This document shows, one piece after another, positions 2,562 through 24,302 of a stretch of DNA of 64,000 bases. The translations under genes and the position numbers were made by a program. Numbering within the stretch: the stretch's first letter is position 1; each line of letters opens with the position of its first letter. Origin of the DNA: Bacillota bacterium (GTDB lineage Bacteria; Bacillota; Bacilli; Paenibacillales; NBRC-103111); NCBI GenBank assembly GCA_023386955.1, contig JAEWIS010000061.1:62001-126000 (forward strand). Reading direction: 5' to 3'. The notes below the pieces were generated by a model. It ran no database searches. It had not been told where the DNA came from and was given only the letters and a program-made list of their open reading frames with translations.

Positions 2562-3245
2562 TTATTTGCTTTTGCGCTTCTCTTTTTTCTTTTTCTCCTC
2601 GGCTTCTAATTTCTCCCGGGCTAATTTCATGCTTTCAATAAAACCCTCCCGCATGCTTTCTCTTACAATGACGGCACTAACCTTTTTTATTTCCGCTGCC
2701 TCTTCCATTCGCAGACTCCTGATAAAATCCATAAAAGAATCCGCTACAACGTAGAGGTTTTCCCAATAATCATCTATCGAGGTGATACCATTCAAATCCA
2801 TTTGCAGCATGATTTTTGCAGCCAGCTCATTTTCATGATCCCAATAGTAGATTCTTCCTTCCGCTGCTCCGCTTAATCCCATACAAATCAGATTCCCTGT
2901 AAGATCCGCAGCAATGGGTAAAAGGGATGACGGCATTCTTTCATAATAATCCTTCATATGTTGTTCCAGGCTATCAGATCCATCGACAGCAACCAAGAAT
3001 GAACCGAATGAAAGCATATTGTCCTTGTCCGCCCGCGGTACGGATTCTATCGCCCGATATTGAATATCGTATTCAGGCGAACCATTCTCATACAGCAAAA
3101 GGAAGTGCCTGTACAGCTCCGGAATAGACAGTTTATAGTGTTTTTCCAGCTTTTTAAGCCTTTTTTCATCAATCTTTTCCTCGCTTTGGGTAAATCCCAG
3201 TTTTGCCAATCGTTCAATCATTTCCGTTACAAGAAGCTCCGTCAT
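2562..3245 (-). CDS. SMI1/KNR4 (SUKH) domain protein
   Basis: A 227-residue protein is read from ATG at 3243-3245, where GGAGG lies 9 bases upstream; a longer upstream reading lacks a ribosome site and looks spurious. Residues ~20-70 (EEKIDEKRLKKLEKHYKLSIP, then PELYRHFLLLYENG) are the typical start of a SUKH/SMI1_KNR4 domain. ENLYVVADSFMDFIRSL near 170 is its typical end. SUKH proteins act as immunity proteins for secreted nuclease toxins, with other uses known. The C-terminus is a long Lys/Glu-rich helix ending KKKKEKRKSK. It precedes the DMP19-like gene, and both are poorer in GC than the flanks. Confidence 0.75.
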   Translation of the reverse strand: MTELLVTEMIERLAKLGFTQSEEKIDEKRLKKLEKHYKLSIPELYRHFLLLYENGSPEYDIQYRAIESVPRADKDNMLSFGSFLVAVDGSDSLEQHMKDYYERMPSSLLPIAADLTGNLICMGLSGAAEGRIYYWDHENELAAKIMLQMDLNGITSIDDYWENLYVVADSFMDFIRSLRMEEAAEIKKVSAVIVRESMREGFIESMKLAREKLEAEEKKKKEKRKSK

Positions 3246-3371
3246 TATCAATGTCCTCCAATTATTAACATATGTCCAGTATACGATTATCTGTGCAGCT
3301 TTGATAGATACGTTTCCTTTAAGCCAAAAATCTGATAGCGTCCAAATGGAAACAACCTGACGAAACAACGG

Positions 3372-3400
3372 TTGACATTCTGATGGCTTTGCGGTATAAC
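3372..3400 (+). promoter_or_regulatory. Sigma-A type promoter of ileS
   Basis: TTGACA at 3372-3377 and TATAAC at 3395-3400 are separated by 17 bases. Transcription would begin about 7 bases later, just before the T-box leader. Confidence 0.8.
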
Positions 3401-3435
3401 TGGCAATAATCAATATTTTTAAACTGATATAACAT

Positions 3436-3698
3436 TCAAATTCGCTGACGAGAACAAATAAGCTGTTGCCCGATCCCCAGAGAGTTGGCCCCGTGCTGAA
3501 AGCCAACGTTCAGGAAACAGCCGAATATCCTCTCCGAGAAGGAAGGCTGAACGAAAGTAAGCCGACCCGGAATCCCCGCCGTTACAAGGGCCGCGTATGA
3601 ACACGTACGCCGGAACAGCGCCGCACGGGCTTTTGATGCCAGCGGAACGAGGGTGGTAGCGCGAGAGCAATCTCGTCCCTTAGGGGACGGGATTTTTT
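3436..3698 (+). promoter_or_regulatory. T-box leader (Ile) of ileS
   Basis: The leader ahead of ileS has the conserved T-box sequence GAACGAGGGTGGTAGCGCG at about 3646-3664, followed by a terminator helix. Further upstream are stem I elements (AGAGAGTTGGCC and CTGAAAGCCAAC). The likely specifier is ATC at 3527-3529, inside CCGAATATCC, which matches isoleucine. Uncharged tRNA-Ile would pair with the specifier and the T-box and so prevent termination. The start boundary is approximate. Confidence 0.9.
3671..3698 (+). terminator. T-box regulated terminator
   Basis: TCTCGTCCC pairs with GGGACGGGA around a short loop and is followed by seven T. Its left arm overlaps the region that would pair in the antiterminator with the T-box bases. 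Confidence 0.85.
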
Positions 3699-7819: not shown

Positions 7820-7850
7820 TTGACTTTGACGCTGCGTCAAGTGGTACTAT
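7820..7850 (+). promoter_or_regulatory. MerR-class promoter with operator in a 19-bp spacer
   Basis: TTGACT at 7820-7825 and TACTAT at 7845-7850 are 19 bases apart, longer than the usual 17. The spacer holds the palindrome TTGACGCTGCGTCAA at 7826-7840. An overlong spacer with the operator between the boxes is the hallmark of MerR-family control, so the downstream regulator probably controls itself. Confidence 0.8.
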
Positions 7851-7871
7851 TTTGATTATCGGGGAGGTGAA

Positions 7872-10550
7872 ATGAGCATGGAGCTGGTCAAGATCACCCA
7901 ACTGTCCCAAGAGCTGGGGCTTTCGTCCCGCACACTGCGTTATTACGAGCAGGCCGGCCTAGTCGAAAGTGTGCGACCGGAAAACGAGAAATACAGGTTC
8001 TATGTGCCAGAGGCCGTGGAGCGTCTCAAGCAGATTATAATCCTGCGCAAACTGCAGATACCCATTAAGGACATTTTGCGCATATACCAAAGCCAGGACA
8101 TGGGTGTTATTGTGGAGACGTTTGTGAACCGGATCAAAGCGATTGAAGAGGAAGTGATTGCACTTTCCGAACTGAAACGGATTGTCAACGAATTTTTGCA
8201 GACCATGATACGAAATGGGATCAAGCAAATATCTGTCCTGCCGCTGTTGTATGAGGAAATGGATAAACAGCTGAAAAACGTAGAAAAAAGTAATCCCGTA
8301 ACCTATGAGCAATTGTCCGATGTCAGTGAAAGACTCGAAAAGCCGGTTGATGTGCGGATTGTTGAATTGAAGCCTATGCGGGTTTTATCCTCCCTGCACA
8401 AAGAATCGGGGATTTCCGAGGTTGACGGTTTCTGGGATTGGCTGATCCAAAAGGGCATTCCGGCAGCAAAGCCCGGACAGCATATGCTCTTTGAATATCA
8501 GGACGATACGTACCAAACCATTGTGATCCGTACAATTCCCGAAAGCTTCGTCAATGATGGCCCTTATATAGACGACATATTTCACGGGGGGCTTTTTGCA
8601 GTTGGAAGCGTATATCTGGATGATGATATGAATACGGCCTTCCGGGGAATGATCCGCTATTTTGACGGCAATGCCTATTATGAAGTGGATTATATGCACG
8701 ATGGGAGACTGCGTCACGAGCCCCTTGTTGAATCAATTATTTCACCGGATGCCCAAAGGGAGAAGGTCGAATTGTTCCTGCCCGTCAAAAGCCGGGTACC
8801 AAACGCTGCCCTCTACGTCCCGAACCGTCGGGTGGAAGATATTTCACCAACTGAGATTGAAGAGGCAAACCCTGTTTTGTGGGGACGGGACATTCCGATG
8901 GACCAATTGCTCCCGATTCTTAACCCCCATTACCGTCTTACCGAATGGGGAGAAGCGGAGTACATCGCCTTTATTGATAAACGCCTCTTATCCACGGGGG
9001 TTGAGGTCAGAATTCCCTTCCGTGTCGATATCGAATTCCGTGTAGATGAAGCGAGCAGCCGGTTTGCTCACGGAAGTGATGAAGGGAGCATCCGCTTTCT
9101 TCACGGTAACCATACATACGGTATCAATATGGAGAACAATTCGGAAAGCGGGTTATCCAAACAAGCCATAAGCTTCAACCAGCCGGTTTTTGGGGATTAT
9201 TTTGTATTTCCACAGCTGGGCCGCATCCATCCGGATGAATACAATTGTGTGACATGGATTATCGGTGAAAAACATCTTGCTGTGATAATTAACGGCGAAA
9301 CAAGGTATTGTGGTGTGGATTTTCCCTACATGACAACGGACCTGCGGATACAGCCGGCTTATCCTGTTATCCTCGGCTCAAACGGCAACGGGAAACGGTA
9401 TTTCCGCAAGGTCCGGGTATCTCAGCTGAAGCATGCCTTTAAACCGAAAATAAAAGGAGGAGAGCTTGCCATGTTTACAAAACAAAGCAACAATCTTTTG
9501 CCCAACATCCATCCGCTGATCACCATGCATTACGGGGAGAACTATTGGTTTAACGGTTGTGCGAGGTATGTGATGGAATGTCTCGGAGAGCCCGATTACG
9601 ATTATTGGTTTTTTTCCGGGCTGACGGGGGATAATTTGGCTCAGGTTTATGCTCGCGACCGTTTCCGGGGGGATGGCGCAACGGATTATCAGGTGGGCAG
9701 CGGGGAAAAAGGGAGGTTCATCGAGGGGGTTTTTGCTGCATGCGGCTATGCCAGCACATTCGTCCCACAGAAGGATGTAAGGTCGAATCGGGACATGTAT
9801 CTGCAAACGCTGATGGCGTATATTGACAAGGGCAAACCTGTGATCCGGTATTTTTATGAATGGGGCGTTTTTGTCGGCTACGAGGATTATGGCAAAACCC
9901 TGCTTTATCTGACGGCAGATAAGCCTGAACCTGAGCGTATTCCCTTTGATAAGGTTTTTGCCTCCCCAGAGCGTTTTGGAGCGGAATCCAATGAGTGGAC
10001 AGACCTGCTTGGGTTTGGATGGTGTTTTGTAGGCGAAAAGAAGAATGAACCAGATCTTGGAATTATTTACCGGAATGTCATCATGGATATGCCTCGGCTT
10101 TTGACCATCCAAACCAAGGAATTCTGCTTCGGTGCCGAAGCATTCCGTTCTTGGGCAGACGAAATTGAGAATGGCCGGTTTGAAGGGATGAAACCCGAAG
10201 CATTTGATGATTGGGCCATGTACAAAATTTATGTATGCAATCTTGCAACCAATGGCAGCTGCCGCAGGTTTCTTGAAAGGGCCTTGGAGAAAAACCCGGA
10301 TATGACCTTTATTGCAGAGATCATCCAACAATACAAGCAGCTGGCTGTGTTATGGAACGGAAGCGATGGCCAGACCCGCCACCAAGGCGATTGTTTGGAA
10401 TCCCTTGGCGGCGGCTTTAATGTGACGCTGGAAGCTTTGACTCACATTGAAAAACGCAAAGCAATCGCGAACAAGATCCGGGAGTGTGCCGGCTGTATGT
10501 CCCGTGTGACCGAGATTCTGAACGAACACAGAAGTTATTTTAATCCTTGA
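7872..10550 (+). CDS. Giant MerR-type regulator fused to GyrI-like, LamG-like and C39-like domains
   Basis: The 892-residue protein opens with a MerR winged helix (residues ~5-75: SSRTLRYYEQAGL) and a dimer-forming helix to ~150. A GyrI-like effector-binding region spans ~157-312, ending VELFLPVKSR. Residues ~375-530 look like a beta-sandwich of the concanavalin/LamG kind (HTYGIN, VIINGETRYCGVDF). Residues ~545-830 resemble the C39-like/BtrH N-terminal papain fold, with NGCARYVMECLGEPDYDYWF near 560 placing a Cys where the nucleophile would be. Typical MerR proteins are 120-300 residues. The N-terminal call is firm; the last two domain calls are by pattern. A perfect SD plus ATG lies inside the gene at 9453-9473. 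It probably senses a small molecule and may act on it; no target gene is adjacent. Confidence 0.85.
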   Translation: MSMELVKITQLSQELGLSSRTLRYYEQAGLVESVRPENEKYRFYVPEAVERLKQIIILRKLQIPIKDILRIYQSQDMGVIVETFVNRIKAIEEEVIALSELKRIVNEFLQTMIRNGIKQISVLPLLYEEMDKQLKNVEKSNPVTYEQLSDVSERLEKPVDVRIVELKPMRVLSSLHKESGISEVDGFWDWLIQKGIPAAKPGQHMLFEYQDDTYQTIVIRTIPESFVNDGPYIDDIFHGGLFAVGSVYLDDDMNTAFRGMIRYFDGNAYYEVDYMHDGRLRHEPLVESIISPDAQREKVELFLPVKSRVPNAALYVPNRRVEDISPTEIEEANPVLWGRDIPMDQLLPILNPHYRLTEWGEAEYIAFIDKRLLSTGVEVRIPFRVDIEFRVDEASSRFAHGSDEGSIRFLHGNHTYGINMENNSESGLSKQAISFNQPVFGDYFVFPQLGRIHPDEYNCVTWIIGEKHLAVIINGETRYCGVDFPYMTTDLRIQPAYPVILGSNGNGKRYFRKVRVSQLKHAFKPKIKGGELAMFTKQSNNLLPNIHPLITMHYGENYWFNGCARYVMECLGEPDYDYWFFSGLTGDNLAQVYARDRFRGDGATDYQVGSGEKGRFIEGVFAACGYASTFVPQKDVRSNRDMYLQTLMAYIDKGKPVIRYFYEWGVFVGYEDYGKTLLYLTADKPEPERIPFDKVFASPERFGAESNEWTDLLGFGWCFVGEKKNEPDLGIIYRNVIMDMPRLLTIQTKEFCFGAEAFRSWADEIENGRFEGMKPEAFDDWAMYKIYVCNLATNGSCRRFLERALEKNPDMTFIAEIIQQYKQLAVLWNGSDGQTRHQGDCLESLGGGFNVTLEALTHIEKRKAIANKIRECAGCMSRVTEILNEHRSYFNP
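9453..9473 (+). promoter_or_regulatory. Internal ribosome binding site inside the MerR fusion gene
   Basis: AAAGGAGG at 9453-9460 stands 10 bases before an in-frame ATG at 9471, exactly at the junction between the LamG-like and C39-like domains. Translation from here would give a free C-terminal protein of about 359 residues. This is visible in the sequence; its use is inferred. Confidence 0.55.
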
Positions 10551-12614: not shown

Positions 12615-14870
12615 TTGAACCACAGCTGGTATAACCGCTTGCTCATCTCATATATGCCGATTTTTATTATCGTCCCCAGCCTGCTGCTGGTTATTTTCTA
12701 TTTTGGCTCCGCCGAGCTGTCCCAGAAGGAGACGGCCAAGGCCAACGAAGTCTTTTCCCGGCAGGCGGTGCAATCCCTGGATTATTCCTTCCGTGCCATC
12801 AGCGAAATGATGAACCGGGAGATCATCTCCAATGAATTCGAGCCTTTTTTCTCCGATACCGGCAATCCCTATATTGCCGCCCACAACGCCTCCACCCGGT
12901 TGATCCAGCTGAAGCTGTCCAACCCGCTGATCGACTCCCTCTATTTGTACCGTTTATCTGATAAGGTAGTGCTGAGCCATCAATCCATCAGTCCCCTGGA
13001 GCAATTCTCTGATCGGGGCGTTATTGAACGGGCCGTAAACGGCCCTGTGCCCACCGGGTGGTCCGAGCCGAGAAACGCCGGGCCGTCGCCGGAGGTCTCC
13101 CATATGGTGGTTAGCCTCACCCGCAGTATCCCCCTCATTACCGGGGAGAAGGGGCTCATGGTGGTGAACGTGTCCGCGGATGCCCTGCGGAATCTCCTGC
13201 GGGACATGATCGGCAATGAAATCAGCTTCATCCATCTGTACGATGCCAACGGCCGTTTCCTGCTGGGCACCGAAAACGGACTTCAGGCCGAGGAAGGGGC
13301 TACTCTCATTCCTCCCAATCAGAAGCAGGAGCTGTCCCGGGTGGTGTCCACTTATACAGGCTGGCAGATCCGCAGCGGTATGGTAGGCGTTTCCTTCCTG
13401 CAGATCCTGCTGAAAATTTCGTTTATCTGGATCATCATGGTCATCCTCATCATCACTGTAGGACTGGGCTGGCTGGTGCTGGTTTCCCGCCGCAATTATA
13501 AGCCGGTAGCCACCATGATGCAGCGGATCAGCAGCATGACCGGCAAGCTGCTGCCCTCCCCGGCGCAGAAGACGGGCAATGATGAATTTTCCTATATCGA
13601 ATCCACCCTGAGTGAAATTATCCAGGCTTCGGACGAGTACCGGAAGCAGCAGAAGGAGGATATCATCTACAAACGGCGCCACTTTTTCCATGAGCTTCTG
13701 GAGGGGAGCAGAACAGTAACACGGGACGAGTGGAGGCTGGAGCTGCCGAAATACGGATTGGAGCCGGATTTCCGCCAGCTTGCCGTGGGGCTTCTGGAGA
13801 TCGACAGATTCACCGATTTCAGCCAGGCCTATACCCACAAAAGCCAGGAACTGCTGCGTTACGCGTTGGTGAATGCCCTCGGCGAGCTATGCCATAAACG
13901 CAGCCTGGCCGTATGGCCGGATTGGCTGTCCAATGGACAGATGGGAATGCTGTTTCTCATCACGGATACTACCCAAGGCCCGGATTTGGATAAAACCATT
14001 ATGGAGGTAGGCCAAGAACTCATCGTTTGGGTGGAGGCCAATCTGACCTTTACGGTAACCATGTCCTCCGGCGGCTTCGTTGCTGAGGTATCCGACATTT
14101 ACCGGTCCTATGATGATGCCATGGAGGCCATGAAATATAAGTCGGTACTGGGGCGTGGACGGTTCATCGGGCAGAAGGACATTGGCGTCAAATCCGATGC
14201 GGAGCTCTACAAAGGGCTGCAGACCATCCGATCCTTGGCCCAGACATACAGGCTGGGGGACCCCCAGTGGGAGGAGCAGTTCGAGGCGTTATTCGGTGAC
14301 CTGAAAACCGGACTGCTCTCCAGGGATGAATTAATGAACATCATGAATTATCTGGTGTACCACCTGTTCCGCGAAATGATGGAGCTGCCCCAGGAGATGC
14401 AGGAGATATGGCGCCAGGAGGCGGCTCCGGGCTTGAATGATGCACTGGAGCGTTTCGAAACCATGGAGGAGCTTCATGCCGACTTCAAGAAGCTGTTGGA
14501 GGACAATGCGAGGAAGCTCCGAATGCTCCGCCAAAGCAAGAGCAATCACAGTGTTATTCAGGAGGTTAAGCGGTACATCGAGGAGCATTATTCGGACCCG
14601 AACATGTCCTTATCCCTGATCGGTGAGCAGTTCCAGATTAGCACCAGCTATCTGAGCAGATTGTTCAAGGATGAGTTCGGCGAAAATTTTGTGGATTACC
14701 TGGCCCAGGTGAGGATCGGCCATGCCCAGCAGCTGCTGAAGGAAACCCGGGAGACCATCCATGAGGTTGCCAGCCGGGTGGGCTACACCAACTATATTTC
14801 CTTCAACCGGGCCTTCAAGAAGGTAACCTCCACCACGCCGGGGGAATACCGGAGCCAAGAAGGTGCGTAA
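12615..14870 (+). CDS. Membrane-bound AraC-family regulator (YesN-like with external sensor)
   Basis: The 751-residue protein has a membrane span near residues 10-30, an extracytoplasmic Cache-like sensor to about 265, a second span (ILLKISFIWIIMVILIITVG) to about 290, and a cytoplasmic linker. It ends in a double helix-turn-helix AraC domain (residues ~650-750: ISTSYLSRLFKDEFGENF and TIHEVASRVGYTNYISFNRAF, then TPGEYR). The TTG start is set by AGGAGGG 6 bases upstream. Such one-piece sensors typically control the neighbouring LplB/YtcP-type ABC operon, which starts 271 bases downstream behind a terminator. The ligand is probably an oligosaccharide or cell-surface glycan, by inference from the locus. 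Confidence 0.9.
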   Translation: MNHSWYNRLLISYMPIFIIVPSLLLVIFYFGSAELSQKETAKANEVFSRQAVQSLDYSFRAISEMMNREIISNEFEPFFSDTGNPYIAAHNASTRLIQLKLSNPLIDSLYLYRLSDKVVLSHQSISPLEQFSDRGVIERAVNGPVPTGWSEPRNAGPSPEVSHMVVSLTRSIPLITGEKGLMVVNVSADALRNLLRDMIGNEISFIHLYDANGRFLLGTENGLQAEEGATLIPPNQKQELSRVVSTYTGWQIRSGMVGVSFLQILLKISFIWIIMVILIITVGLGWLVLVSRRNYKPVATMMQRISSMTGKLLPSPAQKTGNDEFSYIESTLSEIIQASDEYRKQQKEDIIYKRRHFFHELLEGSRTVTRDEWRLELPKYGLEPDFRQLAVGLLEIDRFTDFSQAYTHKSQELLRYALVNALGELCHKRSLAVWPDWLSNGQMGMLFLITDTTQGPDLDKTIMEVGQELIVWVEANLTFTVTMSSGGFVAEVSDIYRSYDDAMEAMKYKSVLGRGRFIGQKDIGVKSDAELYKGLQTIRSLAQTYRLGDPQWEEQFEALFGDLKTGLLSRDELMNIMNYLVYHLFREMMELPQEMQEIWRQEAAPGLNDALERFETMEELHADFKKLLEDNARKLRMLRQSKSNHSVIQEVKRYIEEHYSDPNMSLSLIGEQFQISTSYLSRLFKDEFGENFVDYLAQVRIGHAQQLLKETRETIHEVASRVGYTNYISFNRAFKKVTSTTPGEYRSQEGA

Positions 14871-14878
14871 CAGCATAC

Positions 14879-14913
14879 AAGGATGGGATTGCGGAAGCGT
14901 CCCGTCCTTTTTT
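14879..14913 (+). terminator. Terminator after the AraC regulator
   Basis: AAGGATGGGA pairs with TCCCGTCCTT and is followed by TTTT, separating the regulator from the transporter operon. Confidence 0.85.
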
Positions 14914-14937
14914 ATTGGCATTCAAGAAATGATAGGG

Positions 14938-14963
14938 GTGCAAAATGTGAAAGGTTCTTGCAC
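14938..14963 (+). promoter_or_regulatory. Inverted repeat upstream of the ABC operon, possible AraC site
   Basis: GTGCAA and TTGCAC are separated by 14 bases in the non-coding stretch before the transporter operon. A weak promoter-like pair follows (TTGTCC at 15030, TTACAT at 15053, 17-base spacer). The placement suits a regulator site, but nothing in the motif proves it. Confidence 0.35.
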
Positions 14964-15141
14964 AAAAGCCAGCAGCGGCGCGGGTTTTCAGCCTATTCAA
15001 AAAGTGATAGCCTCCTCAAAAGCTGTCAATTGTCCGAAGCCCCCGGTTCAGGTTACATTGTGATTGCGGCTAGCCGGATCGGCTTCCCGGACCGGGCAGC
15101 CTGTTTGGCCGGCAATCGGTAACAAGACGGAGGTGAGTACG

Positions 15142-16101
15142 ATGAACGATATGGAAATCGCACAGACAAGCACAGGCCGCGGAACGGCGCCAAAACACAC
15201 CTTGTCCGGGCGGAGGCGGTGGATGCTGAACAAGCCCCTCATCGTCATGTTTTTGCCGGCAGTAATCTTTTTCGTTCTGTTCAAGTACGTTCCCATGCTG
15301 GGGATTGTAATCGCCTTCAAGGATTATAATTTCGCCGACGGCATCCTGCACAGCCCTTGGGTAGGATTGGGGAATTATGAGTATCTGTTTAATAACCCGA
15401 AAACACTGACCATCATCCGCAATACCCTGGTGTTAAGCTCCCTCACCGTATTCGTGGGCTTCCCGTTCCCCATCATTCTGGCGATCCTGCTGAATGAGGT
15501 ACGGAAATCCTGGTTCAAAAAATGGACGCAGACGCTTCTGTACCTGCCCCATTTTCTCAACTGGGTTATCGTGGGCGGTCTGGTGGTCATGGTCTTCTCC
15601 CTGGAGACCGGCATTGTGAACCATTGGGTGAGCAAGCTGACGGGAGAGGCGTATCCCTTTCTCTTTAAGGAAGGCTCATGGATTGCCATCTTCGTTGGCT
15701 CCGGGATTTGGAAAACGGCTGGCTGGTCGGCCATCATCTATCTGGCGGCCTTAACCTCCATCGATCCCAGCCTGTACGAAGCGGTGAATTTGGACGGGGC
15801 CAACAAATGGCAGCAAATCCGCCATATTACCCTTCCTGCGCTGCAGCCGACCATTGTTCTGATGTTTATCCTGAACATCGGCAATGTAATGGATGTGGGC
15901 TTCGACCAGGTTTATGTGCTGCAGAATTCCGTGGTCATCGGTGTAGCGGAGGTCATCAGCACTTGGAACTACAAGGTTGGTTTGGGCTCCGGCCAATTCA
16001 GCCACGCAACCGCTATGGGGCTCTTTGAATCCCTGATCGGTCTCACACTGGTGCTGGTGGTTAATACGATCGCCCGGCGTTATGACCGGGGATTGTGGTA
16101 G
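15142..16101 (+). CDS. Sugar ABC transporter permease, LplB family
   Basis: The 319-residue inner-membrane permease of a CUT1-type oligosaccharide importer has six hydrophobic spans and the ATPase-coupling EAA loop (YEAVNLDGANKWQQIRHITLP). Its N-terminus (MFLPAVIFFVLFKYVPMLG) is characteristic of the LplB/YteP group. The start at 15142 has GGAGG 8 bases upstream; reading further upstream would be unsupported. It precedes the second permease by 14 bases. No ATPase gene is present, as usual for this group, which shares a common MsmX-type ATPase. Confidence 0.92.
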   Translation: MNDMEIAQTSTGRGTAPKHTLSGRRRWMLNKPLIVMFLPAVIFFVLFKYVPMLGIVIAFKDYNFADGILHSPWVGLGNYEYLFNNPKTLTIIRNTLVLSSLTVFVGFPFPIILAILLNEVRKSWFKKWTQTLLYLPHFLNWVIVGGLVVMVFSLETGIVNHWVSKLTGEAYPFLFKEGSWIAIFVGSGIWKTAGWSAIIYLAALTSIDPSLYEAVNLDGANKWQQIRHITLPALQPTIVLMFILNIGNVMDVGFDQVYVLQNSVVIGVAEVISTWNYKVGLGSGQFSHATAMGLFESLIGLTLVLVVNTIARRYDRGLW

Positions 16102-16115
16102 GAGGGAGAAGAGGG

Positions 16116-16991
16116 ATGAGAATTTCCGCTGGAGAAAAAATATTTTATGCCATTAACTATCTAATTCTGTCGCTGGCTTCCCTAAGCTGCATCCTGCCCA
16201 TTCTCCACATCATATCGCTGTCCCTGAGCAGCGCCGAGTCCATTACGATGGGCCAGGTGGGGCTGTGGCCGGTAGAATTTACGGCAGAAGCGTACCGCAA
16301 GCTGGTCTCCGGCACCGATGTGCTGGGCGCCTTCCGCAACAGTGTGCTGATCACGCTGGTGGGTACCGCGCTTAATATGGTGTTTACTGTCTTGACAGCA
16401 TACCCTTTGTCCAAGCAATATTTTTATGCAAGACGGTTTTTTACTCTGGCGATTGTGTTTACCATGCTGTTTACGGCGGGGCTGATTCCCAACTACCTGC
16501 TGATCAAATCGCTGGGGCTGGTGAACACCTACGGGTCCTTGTGGCTGCCCGGACTGATCAGTGCGTATAATCTGCTCATTGTCCGGACCTTCTTCGAGAA
16601 TATTCCCGAGGAGCTGGAGGATGCGGCCCGGATCGACGGCTGCGGAGAATGGCGGCTGATTATCCAGATGGTGCTGCCCTTGTCCCTGCCGGTGATCGCC
16701 ACCATTGCACTGTTTTATGGAGTGGGCCATTGGAATGCCTTCTTCAATGTCCTGATCTACATTAACGATTCCTCCAAGTTTAACCTGTCCGTGCTGGTGC
16801 AAAATATGATCCGCAGTCAATCCCTCATGTCGGAGCTGGCCCAGCTGGATCCGGACGCCTTCCGGAACCTGACGCCGGAGGCGATCAAGTCGGCAGGCAT
16901 TATCGTCATGGTGCTGCCTATGCTCATTATCTATCCGTTCCTGCAGAAGTATTTTGTAAAAGGTGTGCTGATCGGCTCCATCAAGGGGTAA
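16116..16991 (+). CDS. Sugar ABC transporter permease, YtcP family
   Basis: The 291-residue partner permease has the EAA loop EELEDAARIDGCGEWRLI near residue 170 and a C-terminus ending KYFVKGVLIGSIKG, typical of the YtcP/YteP-associated group. GGAGGG overlaps the stop codon of the first permease and sits 9 bases before ATG, so the two are translated together. It forms the membrane channel with the LplB-like protein. Confidence 0.92.
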   Translation: MRISAGEKIFYAINYLILSLASLSCILPILHIISLSLSSAESITMGQVGLWPVEFTAEAYRKLVSGTDVLGAFRNSVLITLVGTALNMVFTVLTAYPLSKQYFYARRFFTLAIVFTMLFTAGLIPNYLLIKSLGLVNTYGSLWLPGLISAYNLLIVRTFFENIPEELEDAARIDGCGEWRLIIQMVLPLSLPVIATIALFYGVGHWNAFFNVLIYINDSSKFNLSVLVQNMIRSQSLMSELAQLDPDAFRNLTPEAIKSAGIIVMVLPMLIIYPFLQKYFVKGVLIGSIKG

Positions 16992-17035
16992 ACCCGCAAG
17001 GGTATCTATAAAACACACATTATGGAGGGGTTGCA

Positions 17036-18706
17036 ATGTCCAAACGGCGTATGAAAAAAGGAACTGTGCTTTCGGTAACGGCCGCCTTGTCACTGGTTAC
17101 AGTGCTGGCTGCCTGCTCCAGTGCCAAAGAGGAAACAGCCAAGGAAACCGATAAGCCGGCTGCCTCCGGCACAGCCGCTGCCACTACCCAGGCCTCGACA
17201 GCTCCGGCTAAACGCGGCAGCATCTCCGTGGCTATCTATGACCGGGGCCAGGTCCCGAAGGAAGAGGGCAGCTACACGGACAACCGCTGGACCAAGTGGA
17301 TCAACCAGAACGGCCCTGCGGATGTGAAGTTCGTTACCATTCCCCGGAACGAATCCCAGCAGAAGTACAGCATTCTCTTTGCCTCCGGCGAAGCGCCTGA
17401 TCTGGTACTGGAATTCGACAACGCCTTCATCAATACCCTGTGGTCCCAGAAGCAGCTGCTGCCCATCAATGACCTGATCGATAAACACAGCACGGAGTAC
17501 AAGAAAATTCTGGAGAAATTCCCGGCGATCAAAAAGCTGGCCACCAAACCCGACGGAAAGATGTATGAATTCGCCAAGGTGACCAAACCCGAGGTGCTGG
17601 GCACCATGGTCATCCGTAAGGATTGGCTGGATAAGCTGAACCTGAAGATCCCGGAAACCGTGGAGGAGCTGTACCAGGTGGCGGATGCCTTCGCCAATAA
17701 GGACCCGGACGGCAACGGCAAAAAGGATACCTTCGGCATCAACCTGAGCCAGTTTGCTTCGTATTATGTGGACGCCATGTTCCAAAACGAAATGTTCATC
17801 GTGGAGAACGGGGAGCTGATCCGTCAGTTTGACCGGATTAAGCCGGCCTACGAATTTAAGAAGAAGCTCTTCGATAACGGCATCGTGGATAAGGACTTCC
17901 TGTCCGACAAAAACGGGCAGAAGGCGGAGCAGGACTTTGCCAACGGCAAGCTGGGGATTTACCTGGCGTATACCAGCGTTGTCAGCAAAAACTTCGATAC
18001 CCTGAAGAAAAGCACCCCCGATGCAGTGATCGTGCCCATGGCCTTCCCGAAATCCCAATACGGGCAATTCGGACCTGATTTTAACCCGCCGCTGGCTCTG
18101 ACCGCCTCTGTGAATGCCAAAGCCAAGGACCCGCAGGCCGTTATGCAGTATGTGGACTTTATGGTAAAACCCTCGACGGTGGAGGTGTTCACCAACGGCA
18201 TTGAGAATGTGAACTATAAGAAGGACGCCACCGGCTGCCCGCAGCCTATCGATGCCGCCAAGAACAAAACCGAAATGGGCTACATCAACGACTATAAGAT
18301 GTTCATGCCGACCTATAACCTGCAGCAATGCACCATTGGCGGAAGATCGCCGCAATCCACGAACGCTGTGGATCAGGAATGGATCAAGATTGCCAAGGAG
18401 ATGGATAAACTGTATCTTGATCCTGCCCGTCCGCATCCCGGCTTCACTCATTCCAAGTTCCGTCCTTCCCTGGACAAGGACTTGAACACTATCTTCAACG
18501 ACGGCTGGAACAACATGAACGATATTATGGCCAAATCCGTGGTCAGCGGCAATTCCTACACGGTAGATCAAGGTGTGAAGGATGTAAAGGATGCCTGGGA
18601 TAAGGCAGGCGGTAAAAAGCTGGAGGACTGGTACAAAAACTGGTACAAGGAAAACAAGAGCAGCTGGATCTTTATGGATGAGCTGTACAAAATGAAATTC
18701 GACTGA
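17036..18706 (+). CDS. Extracellular sugar-binding lipoprotein of the ABC importer
   Basis: The 556-residue protein has a lipoprotein signal with lipobox LAAC near residue 27, a Thr/Ala-rich linker, and a family 1-type solute-binding fold of the LipO/YtcQ group. GGAGGGG precedes ATG by 6 bases. It follows both permeases, the usual order in these loci. It would be anchored on the outer face of the membrane and capture the oligosaccharide released by the surface enzymes. A hairpin without a T-run follows. Confidence 0.9.
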   Translation: MSKRRMKKGTVLSVTAALSLVTVLAACSSAKEETAKETDKPAASGTAAATTQASTAPAKRGSISVAIYDRGQVPKEEGSYTDNRWTKWINQNGPADVKFVTIPRNESQQKYSILFASGEAPDLVLEFDNAFINTLWSQKQLLPINDLIDKHSTEYKKILEKFPAIKKLATKPDGKMYEFAKVTKPEVLGTMVIRKDWLDKLNLKIPETVEELYQVADAFANKDPDGNGKKDTFGINLSQFASYYVDAMFQNEMFIVENGELIRQFDRIKPAYEFKKKLFDNGIVDKDFLSDKNGQKAEQDFANGKLGIYLAYTSVVSKNFDTLKKSTPDAVIVPMAFPKSQYGQFGPDFNPPLALTASVNAKAKDPQAVMQYVDFMVKPSTVEVFTNGIENVNYKKDATGCPQPIDAAKNKTEMGYINDYKMFMPTYNLQQCTIGGRSPQSTNAVDQEWIKIAKEMDKLYLDPARPHPGFTHSKFRPSLDKDLNTIFNDGWNNMNDIMAKSVVSGNSYTVDQGVKDVKDAWDKAGGKKLEDWYKNWYKENKSSWIFMDELYKMKFD

Positions 18707-18736
18707 CGTTTCCCATCCGTTCCCGCATTACAAGGT

Positions 18737-18770
18737 GCCGGCTTATTGCGCATATACCGCAAAAGCCGGC
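18737..18770 (+). terminator. Strong hairpin after the binding-protein gene
   Basis: GCCGGCTT and TTGCG pair with CGCAA and AAGCCGGC to form a long stem. No T-run follows, so it may stabilise or partly attenuate the message between the lipoprotein gene and the next gene rather than end it. Confidence 0.6.
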
Positions 18771-18839
18771 TCGCTTGCGGCATCAAATCACACCATGGCA
18801 TGACTCAGAACCTTTCAATATGAATAGGGAGAGTGGAAC

Positions 18840-21800
18840 ATGACCGATTTGAAACGGAGATTAAGCTTGATGTTAGCCGGCTGTCTGATTCTGACGGCTA
18901 TCCTGCCTGCGGGAGCTTTGGCTGAGGAGCCGGCTTCCGGCAGTATGGTCTATTCGGCTTCGGCTGGTTTCAGCGAGGTGCAGGGGCAGAATCAATGGAG
19001 CTACCAGCGGTTAGCCGGAGGCGTGTATAATGATCTGCCCCACTACGATACCGCCAACAAACGCTGGCAGCAGTCGGGGTCTTCGCCCATCTATCCTTGG
19101 GTGAAGGGAGGAGAGATGCATCCCGCCAATAACGGCGATGCTGTCCGCACCTGGACCTCTCCGGCCAAAGGAACCGTAGAAATCACCGGAGAGGTCCGGA
19201 AGGGGGATAATAACGGAGATGGTGTAAACGCTTCCATTAAACGGAATGGTACGGTCTTATGGAGCTCTTTAGTTTCGGGAAGCACACCGTTGGTACCTAG
19301 CGGGGTCAGCGGCATTGCTGTAGAGGCAGGGGATACCATCACATTCGAAATCAACCGAAACGGCAATTTGAATAATGATCACACCTTCTGGAATCCGGCG
19401 GTGCAGTTTACGTCCCAGCCTGTTGTGGTGGAGCAGGAGATTACACTTGCCGCTGCCGAGTCCGTCAACACCCGTGGAGGCAGCAGCGGTGGAGTGAACC
19501 ATGCGGCGACCAACCAAATGATGAAGGTCCCTGCCGCCAGCCCCGATCCGGCCGCCGGAACGGAATTTTGGGTCAAAGCCCGGATTCTGAACGGTTCTCC
19601 TGATCTGGTGAATACCCGGCACGGGTATCTAAAGTTTGATTTGTCTGCCTTCGACGGAGCTTCGTTGAACAGTGTCACCCTCCGGGTATACGGGAAGGAG
19701 GAGCTGACCAAGGATGTGCCGGTAACGGTCAGCGGGCTGTCGGGGTCAGCCTGGCAGGAGAGCACCCTTACGTGGAATAACGCCCCGGCGGAAGCGGGAA
19801 CCCCGCTGGGCACACAAACTATCCGCAGCATTGGCTGGTATGAGTATGATGTGACGACATTTGTTAACAATCGGCTGACAGCTGGCGAAGGCTCTGTTTC
19901 GTTCCGGATGACAGATAACAGCGCTGTGGACCTGAATGCCAAGTTCTTCTCCACCCGTGCTGCGGGTAACAGACCTGAGCTGGTAGTGAAAACAGGACAG
20001 CAGCCGGTAGTTTCTCCGGTTACAGCCCAGCCGCCCTCCGGCGCAGTGGCTGCCGGTACACAGATTCAGTTATCGACGCAAACCGTTGGAGCCGAAATCT
20101 ACTACACCTTGGACGGAAGCGATCCGGTGCTTGGAGGGACCTTGTATAGTGGCCCTTTTGGGTTGAACAGCGGAGCCACTGTACGGGCCTATGCCAAAAA
20201 GCAGGGCTGGACTCCTAGTCAGGCTGCCTCCTTCACGTATACCATGCTTCCCCAGGTGCCAAGCGGTGTCACCAACCTGCCGGACAGCTTCTATAACCGT
20301 CCCGGTCTGGAAGCCATGCCCCGCATTGATTACGCCTCCATGAAGGTGGCCAATGTCCGGGATTACGGTGCCACAGGGGATGGGGTCACTGACGATAAAG
20401 CCGCTTTTGATCTGGCTATCGACGCCTTGAATGCCCAGGGCGGGGGCGTGGTTTATATGCCCGCAGGCAAATACTTCTTCGCTCCTACACCCACCAACGG
20501 CACCACGCCGGAAAGCCGCCGCTTCTGGGACAGAACCGGGGCAAGAGCCTTGAACAATATCCATTTTGTCGGAGACGGGGAATCAACAGTTATCGTTTTC
20601 CGGAATCCCGGCATCTCATCCGTACCCAACGGGCAAACCTACAGCAACTCCGGCGGGGCTTATATGAGCGGACGCCCCTACGGCTGGCGGCTGGACGGCA
20701 CCAACTACTCCCTGCGGGGCTTCAGCACCTCTTGGACGCCGCGTATGGATATGCGCTCCATCAACGGACCGTACAATCTGGGCCTGTCCGGACAAAATAT
20801 CCAAGCCGTGAACCTGAATGTGGACCAAGGCGGCATCGGTATGGTGTTTTGGCAGAATACGCGGAACGTTTGGGCGGTGGGCAACGTTGTCCGCAATACG
20901 GGAGCCGACAGCATCCATTTTGCCAATACGGTGGATGTGGTGGCCGCATATAACTGGGTGGAAAACAGCAATGACGATGCGGTGGGTTTTGTATCCGACG
21001 CACCCGGGACCAACAATTGGCCGGTCTCCCAAAACAACTACGCCTTGTACAATACCATTATCAAAACACCCTGGGGCCGGGGCATCAGCGCCGGCGGCAT
21101 CGGTCATAAGCTGGAGAACAACTGGATCGAAAGCTCGCTGCTGTCCGGGATTTTTACCAACTCCCTTGGGCAGGCCGGGGAATCCGGGATACCGGTTCAG
21201 GATGTCTCCATCAAGGGGAATACCATTCTCCGCTCCGACCAGAATAACCGAGCCGATAACAACAACCGCAACAGCGGCGTGTATAAGGGCTCTGTGGTGC
21301 TCAACAACAACGCCACACGGGTGAACATTGAAAATAACAAGATTTACGGCAATCCGGGCAACGGTATCTTTTTCAGTGCGTGGAGCTCGGCTCTGCAGGG
21401 GAAAAATCTATCCGTCCGGAACAACCGGATTGAAGGCTCTCTTGAGAGCGCTGTGAAGATCAACGGCAATGCTGTGATCGACGGTTTGGAAATGACGGGC
21501 AATTCCTTCCTTGGAAATGCCAATAGCGTGCTCTTCGGCGGAACACTGAGGGGAACACTCACCTATTCGGGCAACCGGGTCTCTCAGCCTACGGTGCCAG
21601 TGCGGACCGGCTTTGACGTGGTGACGGATCAGGCGGAATATGTGGATCTTTATCAGACTCTTGGAAATGCCGCCAGTGAAACCGGATGGGCGGAAGCTCC
21701 GGCCGTATTGCCGGCAGGAAGCGGCCAAGAGATCAATGTGAGGACCTTCGGCGCCAAGGGTGACGGGGCTTCGGATGATACTCACGCCTTCCAGGCCGCG

Positions 21801-24302
21801 TTGGATGCGGTGCCCGCACAGGGCGGCAGCCTGTATGTGCCTGCCGGGGTTTACAAGCTGAGCCCGCAGACGGGTCAGGATAAGCTGGCCTTTACGGCCA
21901 TCGGGCATCACCTGGCTGTAAAAGCGAAAAGCAATCTGCGGATCCGCGGAGACGGGGACGGCAGTGTGCTGCGTTTTACCTCTGCCGAGCATCAGGGCTT
22001 GCGGCTTGCCGGAGTAACTGGCGCTTCTGTACAGGGCTTGAAGCTGGAGCTGGCGGAGCAGCCGTACCAGCGTCATAACCGGGCGCTCCTGGATCTGACC
22101 GGCAGCACGGGTGTGGCTGTAGATCATGTCACCGCGGTCAATTCCGGCGGTCCCGGTATTCTGGTGGACACCTCCACCCGAGTGTCAGTCAAGAACAGCA
22201 CGGTGACCAATGCGGGGACTGGTGGTGTGGAGATTCTGGCCAGCCGTCAGGTGTTCGTGGAGAATAATACGGTGCAGAACTCCCGGGATTCGGCGGTGCT
22301 GGTCAACAAGCTGGGGACCATCGGCCGGGAGCCCCAATATATCCGGATTGCCGGTAATCAGTTGGCTGGCTCTCGTGACCAGTCCGGCGTCAGTATTGCC
22401 AGCGGCAACCAGATTGAGGTAACAGGGAATACCATTACGGACACCCATCTGGCAGGTATCGCCGTGTACTATACCAGTGAAGCCTTCCATGCGGAGAAGG
22501 TGCGGATTCAGAACAACACGCTGACCCGGACCAACCAGGGCAGTTCCACGTACCACTACGGTGCCATTACGGTACTGCGCAGTATGAAGGGGGATCTGGT
22601 GATTTCCGGCAATACGGTGGATACGACTCCGTATTTCGGCATTGCCTTGGACCAAAGCACGCTGACCCGCCTGGAGCTGGGGCAAAATATCTTCCGTTCG
22701 CTGGGCAAGGAGCCGGTGCGGCAATTCAACACGACCATCTCCACGCAAGTGGATCTGGATAAGCTGGCCAATATCAAATCTATTGTTCCGAAGCTGGTGC
22801 AGCCGGGAGCCTGGCAGCATTGGGCGGTGGAGGTGGAGCTGGAGAACCGGAGCACCGTCCCCATCAGCGGGACGGCGGGTTTGGGGCCAACGGCTGAGTG
22901 GCCCCAGCCGGGAGCGGCGGTTCCTTTGGCCAGTCTGGCACCGGGAACGGCGGCGAAGCTGCTGCTGCCTGTGCCCCTACCCCCGGATACCCGCCGGGTA
23001 GAGCTGGAGGTGGTGGTGAACCTGGATACCGGGGTCCGGCAATCTGTGGTCCAGCCCGTGAATTTCCTGGCGGCGAAACGTGCGGTGTCATTGATCGTGC
23101 CGGATGGTGTGGTTGGCGGGGAATGGGCGGGAGCTATGCCCTTCCGGCTGGCGGAGGCTGCCCAATACAAGAATGTCAGCGGCGGCACGGTGCCTTGGGG
23201 CGGCGCAGATGATCTGAGCGCCGTGGGGTACACCCAATGGGACCAGGATAATCTTTACCTGGCTGCTGTAGTGAAGGACAATGTCCACCGCCAGGCCAGC
23301 TCCGACGGTGCTGCCTGGATGGGGGACAGCATCCAGTTTATGATCGACCACGGCCGGCTGGCTGGACCGGGCAGCGCCGGGTACACGGAGCTGTTGTTCG
23401 CCCGTTCGGATGCCGGGGATACGGTGAAGTGGCGGTGGTCGGGAGTTGCCGGCAAGCCGGTTGGTGCCCTGGCGGCAGCCCAGGCCTCCATTGTTCGCAA
23501 TGAAGCGGAGCGGACAACGGTTTATGAGGTGGCAGTGCCCTGGTCGGAGCTGCTGCCTGCGGGGGTTGCCATACCGGAAACGTTGGTAGGTTTCTCCTTC
23601 CTGGTGAATGATGATGACGGACCAGGGCGGCACGGCTGGCTGGAATATATGAGCGGCATCGGCACGGGCAAGAATCCCGCCCAGTTCGGTGAGCTGGTCC
23701 TTTCTCCCGCTGGTGGGCAGCCTCCGGGAGACAACGTTCCGCCGGTGATTACTCTGTTGGGCGCAGCGGAAATGGAGCTGGTGCAGGGGACAGCTTTTGT
23801 CGAGCCCGGATTTAGCGCCGTTGACGAAACCGACGGTGATTTAACCCCTGCTGTGGTGGTCACCGGCAGTGTGGATACCGCGGTCCCCGGGGAATACGTG
23901 CTGCAGTACAATGTCCGGGATCAGGCGGGCAACCAGGCGGTTGCTGTTGTCCGTACCGTCCGGGTGGTGGAAGCGCCGTATCCCTTCCTTCTGGAAGCGG
24001 TGGGCGGACTCCAGCGGGCCTCCGGGCTGTCTGCAACGGTACGTATCCACCGTGAAGACGGAGTACCTGCCCCTGCGGGCAACGCGGTGGTGGTGTTCCA
24101 GCTGATGAGGGGCACAACGCCGGTCAGCTACGTGGCCTCCAGCCAGTTATTTGACGGAGGCGAAGAGCTAACAGGCCACTTCGATGTAGCTGATCCCGGC
24201 AACAGCGCGTACACGGTCCATGTATTGATGCTGGACCGGCTGAACAGTGGCGGCGGCACGGGTATGCCTGTACCGTTATCTCCCAAGGTGGTGCTGGAGT
24301 AG
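18840..24302 (+). CDS. Secreted multidomain protein with two pectate-lyase-type beta-helices and CBM9
   Basis: The 1820-residue exported protein has a signal peptide (~28 residues) and a beta-rich region to ~195. A DNRLRE domain spans ~200-385 (LKFDLSAF, SLNSVTLRVYG, WYEYDVTTFV), followed by a chitobiase-like C-terminal repeat ~386-465 (YYTLDGSDP). Two right-handed beta-helix modules follow, each opening with the pectate lyase superfamily signature: NVRDYGATGDGVTDD near 502 and NVRTFGAKGDGASDD near 964. A CBM9-like sugar-binding domain spans ~1418-1625, a DUF5011-type Ig domain ~1631-1715, and a beta-rich tail ends it. Catalytic residues cannot be assigned with confidence. It probably binds and cleaves a polysaccharide outside the cell. 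No sorting signal or SLH domain is present; the next gene encodes the SLH protein. Confidence 0.85.
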   Translation: MTDLKRRLSLMLAGCLILTAILPAGALAEEPASGSMVYSASAGFSEVQGQNQWSYQRLAGGVYNDLPHYDTANKRWQQSGSSPIYPWVKGGEMHPANNGDAVRTWTSPAKGTVEITGEVRKGDNNGDGVNASIKRNGTVLWSSLVSGSTPLVPSGVSGIAVEAGDTITFEINRNGNLNNDHTFWNPAVQFTSQPVVVEQEITLAAAESVNTRGGSSGGVNHAATNQMMKVPAASPDPAAGTEFWVKARILNGSPDLVNTRHGYLKFDLSAFDGASLNSVTLRVYGKEELTKDVPVTVSGLSGSAWQESTLTWNNAPAEAGTPLGTQTIRSIGWYEYDVTTFVNNRLTAGEGSVSFRMTDNSAVDLNAKFFSTRAAGNRPELVVKTGQQPVVSPVTAQPPSGAVAAGTQIQLSTQTVGAEIYYTLDGSDPVLGGTLYSGPFGLNSGATVRAYAKKQGWTPSQAASFTYTMLPQVPSGVTNLPDSFYNRPGLEAMPRIDYASMKVANVRDYGATGDGVTDDKAAFDLAIDALNAQGGGVVYMPAGKYFFAPTPTNGTTPESRRFWDRTGARALNNIHFVGDGESTVIVFRNPGISSVPNGQTYSNSGGAYMSGRPYGWRLDGTNYSLRGFSTSWTPRMDMRSINGPYNLGLSGQNIQAVNLNVDQGGIGMVFWQNTRNVWAVGNVVRNTGADSIHFANTVDVVAAYNWVENSNDDAVGFVSDAPGTNNWPVSQNNYALYNTIIKTPWGRGISAGGIGHKLENNWIESSLLSGIFTNSLGQAGESGIPVQDVSIKGNTILRSDQNNRADNNNRNSGVYKGSVVLNNNATRVNIENNKIYGNPGNGIFFSAWSSALQGKNLSVRNNRIEGSLESAVKINGNAVIDGLEMTGNSFLGNANSVLFGGTLRGTLTYSGNRVSQPTVPVRTGFDVVTDQAEYVDLYQTLGNAASETGWAEAPAVLPAGSGQEINVRTFGAKGDGASDDTHAFQAALDAVPAQGGSLYVPAGVYKLSPQTGQDKLAFTAIGHHLAVKAKSNLRIRGDGDGSVLRFTSAEHQGLRLAGVTGASVQGLKLELAEQPYQRHNRALLDLTGSTGVAVDHVTAVNSGGPGILVDTSTRVSVKNSTVTNAGTGGVEILASRQVFVENNTVQNSRDSAVLVNKLGTIGREPQYIRIAGNQLAGSRDQSGVSIASGNQIEVTGNTITDTHLAGIAVYYTSEAFHAEKVRIQNNTLTRTNQGSSTYHYGAITVLRSMKGDLVISGNTVDTTPYFGIALDQSTLTRLELGQNIFRSLGKEPVRQFNTTISTQVDLDKLANIKSIVPKLVQPGAWQHWAVEVELENRSTVPISGTAGLGPTAEWPQPGAAVPLASLAPGTAAKLLLPVPLPPDTRRVELEVVVNLDTGVRQSVVQPVNFLAAKRAVSLIVPDGVVGGEWAGAMPFRLAEAAQYKNVSGGTVPWGGADDLSAVGYTQWDQDNLYLAAVVKDNVHRQASSDGAAWMGDSIQFMIDHGRLAGPGSAGYTELLFARSDAGDTVKWRWSGVAGKPVGALAAAQASIVRNEAERTTVYEVAVPWSELLPAGVAIPETLVGFSFLVNDDDGPGRHGWLEYMSGIGTGKNPAQFGELVLSPAGGQPPGDNVPPVITLLGAAEMELVQGTAFVEPGFSAVDETDGDLTPAVVVTGSVDTAVPGEYVLQYNVRDQAGNQAVAVVRTVRVVEAPYPFLLEAVGGLQRASGLSATVRIHREDGVPAPAGNAVVVFQLMRGTTPVSYVASSQLFDGGEELTGHFDVADPGNSAYTVHVLMLDRLNSGGGTGMPVPLSPKVVLE

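Follow-up and report, generated by a model that had tools for sequence, protein, structure and literature searches.

The gene at 7878..10550 (+) of the window, the 64-kb stretch of DNA that was analysed as a whole, encodes a MerR-GyrI-LamG-BtrH-like regulator. Judged from its sequence and modelled structure, the fusion protein is rather probably a one-component regulator of the MerR-GyrI kind that works in the cytoplasm; it would act as a self-inducing ligand sensor and control mainly its own gene. By analogy, it is possibly also a ligand trap or sink, which is less sure than the sensor reading.

Domain architecture

The 892-aa protein has an N-terminal MerR winged HTH at residues 7-73 (7890..8090, +). 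The match to PF13411 scores 55.1 bits against a cut-off of 21.6 (E 8.5e-15) and is the only one in the protein above the Pfam cut-offs; PHROGs gave nothing beyond HTH matches. The predicted structure and fold search place a GyrI-like ligand-binding domain at residues 157-308 (8340..8795, +), a lectin/LamG-like beta-sandwich of concanavalin-like fold at residues 333-522 (8868..9437, +; best match 1oq1) and a BtrH-like domain at residues 536-890 (9477..10541, +). No Pfam GyrI-like or Cass2 match is found in the protein at E up to 1. As modelled, residues 157-308 are GyrI-like by fold and not by Pfam sequence family. A hydrophobic stretch is absent from the protein (maximum 19-residue mean 0.84).

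A sequence-only reading of this DNA had proposed a MerR regulator with GyrI-like, LamG-like and C39-like domains. Structure prediction and fold search confirm the first three domains and their coordinates. The papain-like fold that it proposed is confirmed at residues 536-890, so the superfamily implied by "C39-like" holds. The family does not, since the full-length match is to BtrH-type acyltransferases.

Operator and gene neighbourhood

The fusion gene has a MerR-type operator/promoter at 7820..7850 (+), with TTGACT, a 19-bp spacer, the dyad TTGACGC-T-GCGTCAA and TACTAT. An over-long spacer holding a dyad is a feature of MerR promoters, and a 19-20-bp spacer with a dyad is found both at 7820-7850 and in the homologues. 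A sigma-70 scan limited to 16-18-bp spacers instead finds an overlapping 16-bp site at 7826-7853. The operator form TTGACN-TTGAC-N5-GTCAAGTG, with its 19-bp spacer, is deeply conserved. The element TTGACN-TTGACGnnnnGTCAAGTG(G/A)-TAnnnT lies directly upstream of 12/17 genes, with TGGACA as the -35 in one case. It precedes the L004 fusion with one mismatch, and in L006, L007 and L009 it precedes a 378-388-aa gene that stands before the fusion. L014 has another dyad.

Fourteen of the 15 fusion-bearing genomes carry the element at the fusion or the operon that contains it. When up to 2 mismatches are allowed, these genomes hold 21 sites, with 15 at fusions or their operons, four rows (three places) at other merR genes and two unassigned; the reversed control gave one. 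No operator at up to 2 mismatches accompanies a second copy of the fusion in G003, and the G013 fusion is also without one. Targets with more divergent operators would escape the scan, and the genomes are partly incomplete MAGs. A single copy of the element is present in the 64-kb window, even if 3 mismatches are tolerated, and shuffled sequences contain none. Of 104 genomes in the family of Gorillibacterium, three have a site when 1 mismatch is allowed. These are the three that carry the fusion, with one site each; the control has none listed. A looser scan matches 285/4000 random stretches from these loci, and 12/4000 with a strong dyad. Near-identical operators also lie upstream of other MerR-family genes, at L084:1501-1524 (310 aa), L086:1501-1524 (242 aa) and L089:1501-1524 (317 aa), which suggests that this branch of MerR proteins has an operator code in common and is autoregulated.

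A survey of the neighbours of full-length homologues, as proposed in the sequence-only reading, shows no generally conserved neighbour in the loci scanned. Among the 10 upstream genes scanned, the 378-388-aa gene appears three times (L006, L007, L009), directly behind the operator. Its protein shows weak similarity to the BtrH-like domain over 93 columns (pairwise E 1.3e-6). This gene belongs to a 350-390-aa family without a Pfam match that heads the fusion operon (L006:8650-9801, L007:8636-9772, L009:8559-9725), and L007 has a second copy at 13139-14194. In L005 (8842-9909), the gene directly upstream of the fusion encodes a protein of 355 aa that carries a Cass2 domain and whose second half looks similar.

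The window itself holds an AraC regulator with a Cache domain, an ABC permease, a solute-binding protein and an 1820-aa beta-helix protein (CBM96, CBM9) at 12615-24302, which form a probable polysaccharide-use cluster. A SMI1/KNR4 (SUKH) family protein is encoded at 2562-3506 (-). The fusion protein could be a glycan-utilisation regulator whose lectin-like domain senses an oligosaccharide and which controls nearby carbohydrate genes. The lectin/CBM-like sandwich, with 1oq1 as its best match, fits this explanation, as does the carbohydrate-type ABC cluster with its CBM96 beta-helix protein at 12.6-24.3 kb. However, the only operator in the window is at the fusion gene, the operator is found elsewhere almost only at fusions, and the neighbours in the 13 loci scanned have no common carbohydrate theme. 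This explanation is rather unlikely.

The C-terminal domain

By fold search and profile-profile comparison, the C-terminal domain is closer to the carrier-protein acyltransferases BtrH, CcbD, CtaG and AziU3 than to C39 peptidases. In the predicted structure the BtrH-type match spans the papain-like core plus the helical half. The profile-profile comparison supports homology to this type, with an E-value that refers to one pair and not to a database. The sequence profile of the stand-alone domain finds nothing in the PDB at E up to 10; therefore, the homology rests on the structure and the profile-profile comparison. No PF14399 match at E up to 1 is found in the 892-aa protein (P0001) or in 52 stand-alone members. 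Assignment as a C39 peptidase was rejected because the superfamily fits and the family features fail, with no Cys-His dyad and no His at 554-836.

The domain also occurs outside of the MerR fusion. Among the 120 matches listed for the domain, some of them fragments, it stands alone in 76 and is combined with the lectin-like domain in 34. In L020, L021 and L023 it lies directly behind an AraC-type HTH with no other recognised domain, and many further proteins of this kind are among the matches listed (120 of 1173). Behind the AraC HTH the BtrH-like domain occupies the place of a sensor, and it is therefore read as one. In the AraC protein adjoining the L010 fusion, the place behind the HTH holds a GyrI-type match that lies just under the cut-off. 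A Cass2 match reaches the cut-off in P0228, and a GyrI-like match in P0211 falls just short of it. L024:4795-7857 contains a stand-alone BtrH-like gene, then a GNAT-like/BtrH-like frame and then a BtrH-like frame, and is apparently interrupted.

A length-variable segment at residues 657-669 (9840..9878, +) ends at a Gly-Tyr motif, and the catalytic His of the relatives is absent here. In MerR rows, the stretch from 656 to the motif is 11 to 23 residues long, and its lengths peak at 13, 16 and 21. Asp114, Met128, Leu129 and His131 of CcbD are among the residues described as sugar-binding (PMC12945683), and by analogy these may correspond to the length-variable segment. Ligand binding by the fusion protein is plausible, and a glycan is one candidate.

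The Cys motif picked out by the sequence-only reading is C563 (codon 9558..9560, +), which is at the place of the relatives' catalytic Cys and is shared by 114 of the 121 full-length proteins aligned. CcbD has a Cys-His-Glu triad and a ping-pong carrier-protein reaction (PMC12945683). The titles of CtaG mutant structures among the fold-search matches (C11A, H128A, D144N) point to a similar triad. A His six residues before a conserved Gly is found in 12/13 BtrH_N proteins, as read by eye from an alignment of 13 of 19 loci. The Gly-Tyr motif is nearly invariant in the domain family of the fusion protein, and a His six residues before it occurs in only 1/125 MerR-bearing rows, 0/77 AraC-bearing rows and 4/134 rows without a detected HTH. 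Thus, of the Cys-His-acid triad of BtrH_N, the Cys is present and the His is absent. The 892-aa protein has no His at all from residue 554 to 836.

Other His residues are found near this position. A His four residues before the motif (position 665) occurs in one MerR row, no AraC row and 13 rows without a detected HTH, a distribution that needs two changes on the tree. Some His in the segment before the motif is carried by 65/125 MerR rows, which, like the retained Cys, speaks against a dead domain. His547 is conserved upstream of C563 and was considered as an alternative base. It is probably not the partner of C563, because it is retained in 7/8 MerR rows without the Cys.

C563 is retained in 117/125 MerR, 104/134 HTH-less and 20/77 AraC rows, with a gap at this position in 4 HTH-less and 14 AraC rows. 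These counts come from a domain model that matched 336 of 343 proteins (7 unmatched), and metagenome fragments swell the HTH-less class. C563 changes 13 times on a tree built by a quick search on the 144 rows (of 316) that remained when these were thinned at 72% identity; 61/141 inner branches are open and there are long-branch warnings. Retention in the MerR rows exceeds what a dead enzyme would need, and the thiol may still have a role.

The sequence-only reading had suggested an enzyme coupled to a transcription switch in one chain. If the domain were an active acyltransferase, amidase or peptidase of the Cys type, processing the ligand by means of a displaced or non-canonical base, this would account for the retention of C563 in nearly invariant surroundings, for the full-length fold match to active enzymes and for the 13/336 rows with both His665 and C563. 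Papain-like enzymes with a displaced His exist (PMC10318531). However, the loss of the canonical His, the lack of any His at 554-836 in the window protein, the persistence of His547 where the Cys is gone and the repeated loss of C563 speak against an enzyme, which makes this explanation quite unlikely. By the features tested, the domain is neither an active BtrH acyltransferase nor a C39 peptidase.

Gene integrity and distribution

The ORF listed at 7872-10550 (+) is intact and encodes 892 aa with no internal stop. The GC3 across its domains is 0.52-0.63. The true start is probably at window 7878, which would give a protein of 890 aa, because the consensus N terminus of the homologues (MxLxKIT) corresponds to Met3 and the spacing of a GGAGG at about 7863-7867 is better for Met3 than for the listed start. 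The size, which had been noted as far outside the usual for MerR proteins, is real and belongs to one ORF.

Among 5.8 billion proteins searched, 450 homologues of the 892-aa protein were found. Each of the best 120 of the 450 aligns with at least 93% of the query, and the identities are 50-94%. An error of sequencing or assembly that joined separate genes, a concern that the sequence-only reading had raised, would explain a size unusual for MerR, but has a negligible probability because the same architecture recurs in all 120 listed homologues and is unbroken in 11 of the 13 genomes re-searched. Counts in the protein searches come from the best 120 of 450, 291 and 1173 matches and favour close relatives. 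The alignments used for folding contain 119 of the 120 listed homologues, with P0064 (1044 aa) left out.

The distribution of the fusion family is patchy. Named sources among the matches listed include Paenibacillus, Gorillibacterium, Desnuesiella, Lachnospiraceae, Oscillospiraceae and Clostridiaceae. The full fusion (E <=1e-200) is found in 3/104 genomes of the family of Gorillibacterium. The BtrH-like domain is found in 5/246 genomes of the order of Gorillibacterium and in 7/341 genomes of the class that includes the Lachnospiraceae MAG L009. These surveys scored at most 8 candidates per genome in the 104- and 246-genome sets and at most 6 in the 341-genome set, so that weak relatives may escape. 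Several relatives occur together in some genomes.

Proposed mechanism and comparison with known systems

In the proposed mechanism, a dimer of the fusion protein would bind the dyad in the over-long spacer of its own promoter. A ligand would bind to at least one of the three ligand-type domains. The ligand-bound protein would realign the promoter, as known MerR proteins do, and would then accumulate. Since sites of this operator are nearly confined to the fusion gene or its short operon, the output is probably the induced protein itself, which may trap the ligand. The BtrH-like domain would serve as a binding domain, with specificity set by the length-variable segment before the lost His. Because relatives of this domain join amino-sugar and peptide parts, a natural product bearing an amino-sugar or peptide is our guess for the ligand.

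The regulators AlbA and STM3175 have a protective role as well, since they bind albicidin, and autoregulation of STM3175 is suggested, not more, in the same source (PMC10414762). With the sensor reading favoured and this precedent at hand, a self-inducing ligand sensor that is possibly also a trap is proposed. The ligand-trapping regulator has a further precedent in TipA. A wider and more tentative proposal is that the BtrH-type acyltransferase fold may have become a modular sensor for MerR and AraC regulators, whose HTH classes are unrelated, with the MerR form as a single-gene, self-inducing natural-product trap in which C563 perhaps captures the ligand covalently.

If true, this would be a new sensor domain for bacterial one-component regulators, derived from an antibiotic-assembling enzyme family. 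The conserved operator would be a direct reporter for a ligand search. If the ligand is trapped too, the fusions would be protection devices in Bacillota that are self-contained and autoinduced, and of whose domains Pfam recognises none but the HTH. No paper on MerR with BtrH, BtrH with CtaG, or a MerR-C39 peptidase fusion was found in the PMC literature, which leaves most subscription journals outside.

In C39 peptidases (PCAT1, ComA), the helical half is outside of the match, and the fusion protein has neither their catalytic His nor a transporter. The BtrH-type carrier-protein acyltransferases (BtrH, CcbD, CtaG, AziU3; PF14399) share the fold over the core and the helical half, with the Cys in place, but the fusion protein lacks the canonical His and a PF14399 match, and its domain is fused to MerR or AraC HTHs. 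Compared with the MerR-GyrI regulators BmrR, EcmrR and BrlR and with AlbA and STM3175, the fusion protein is three times longer, adds the lectin-like and BtrH-like domains and apparently targets mainly itself.
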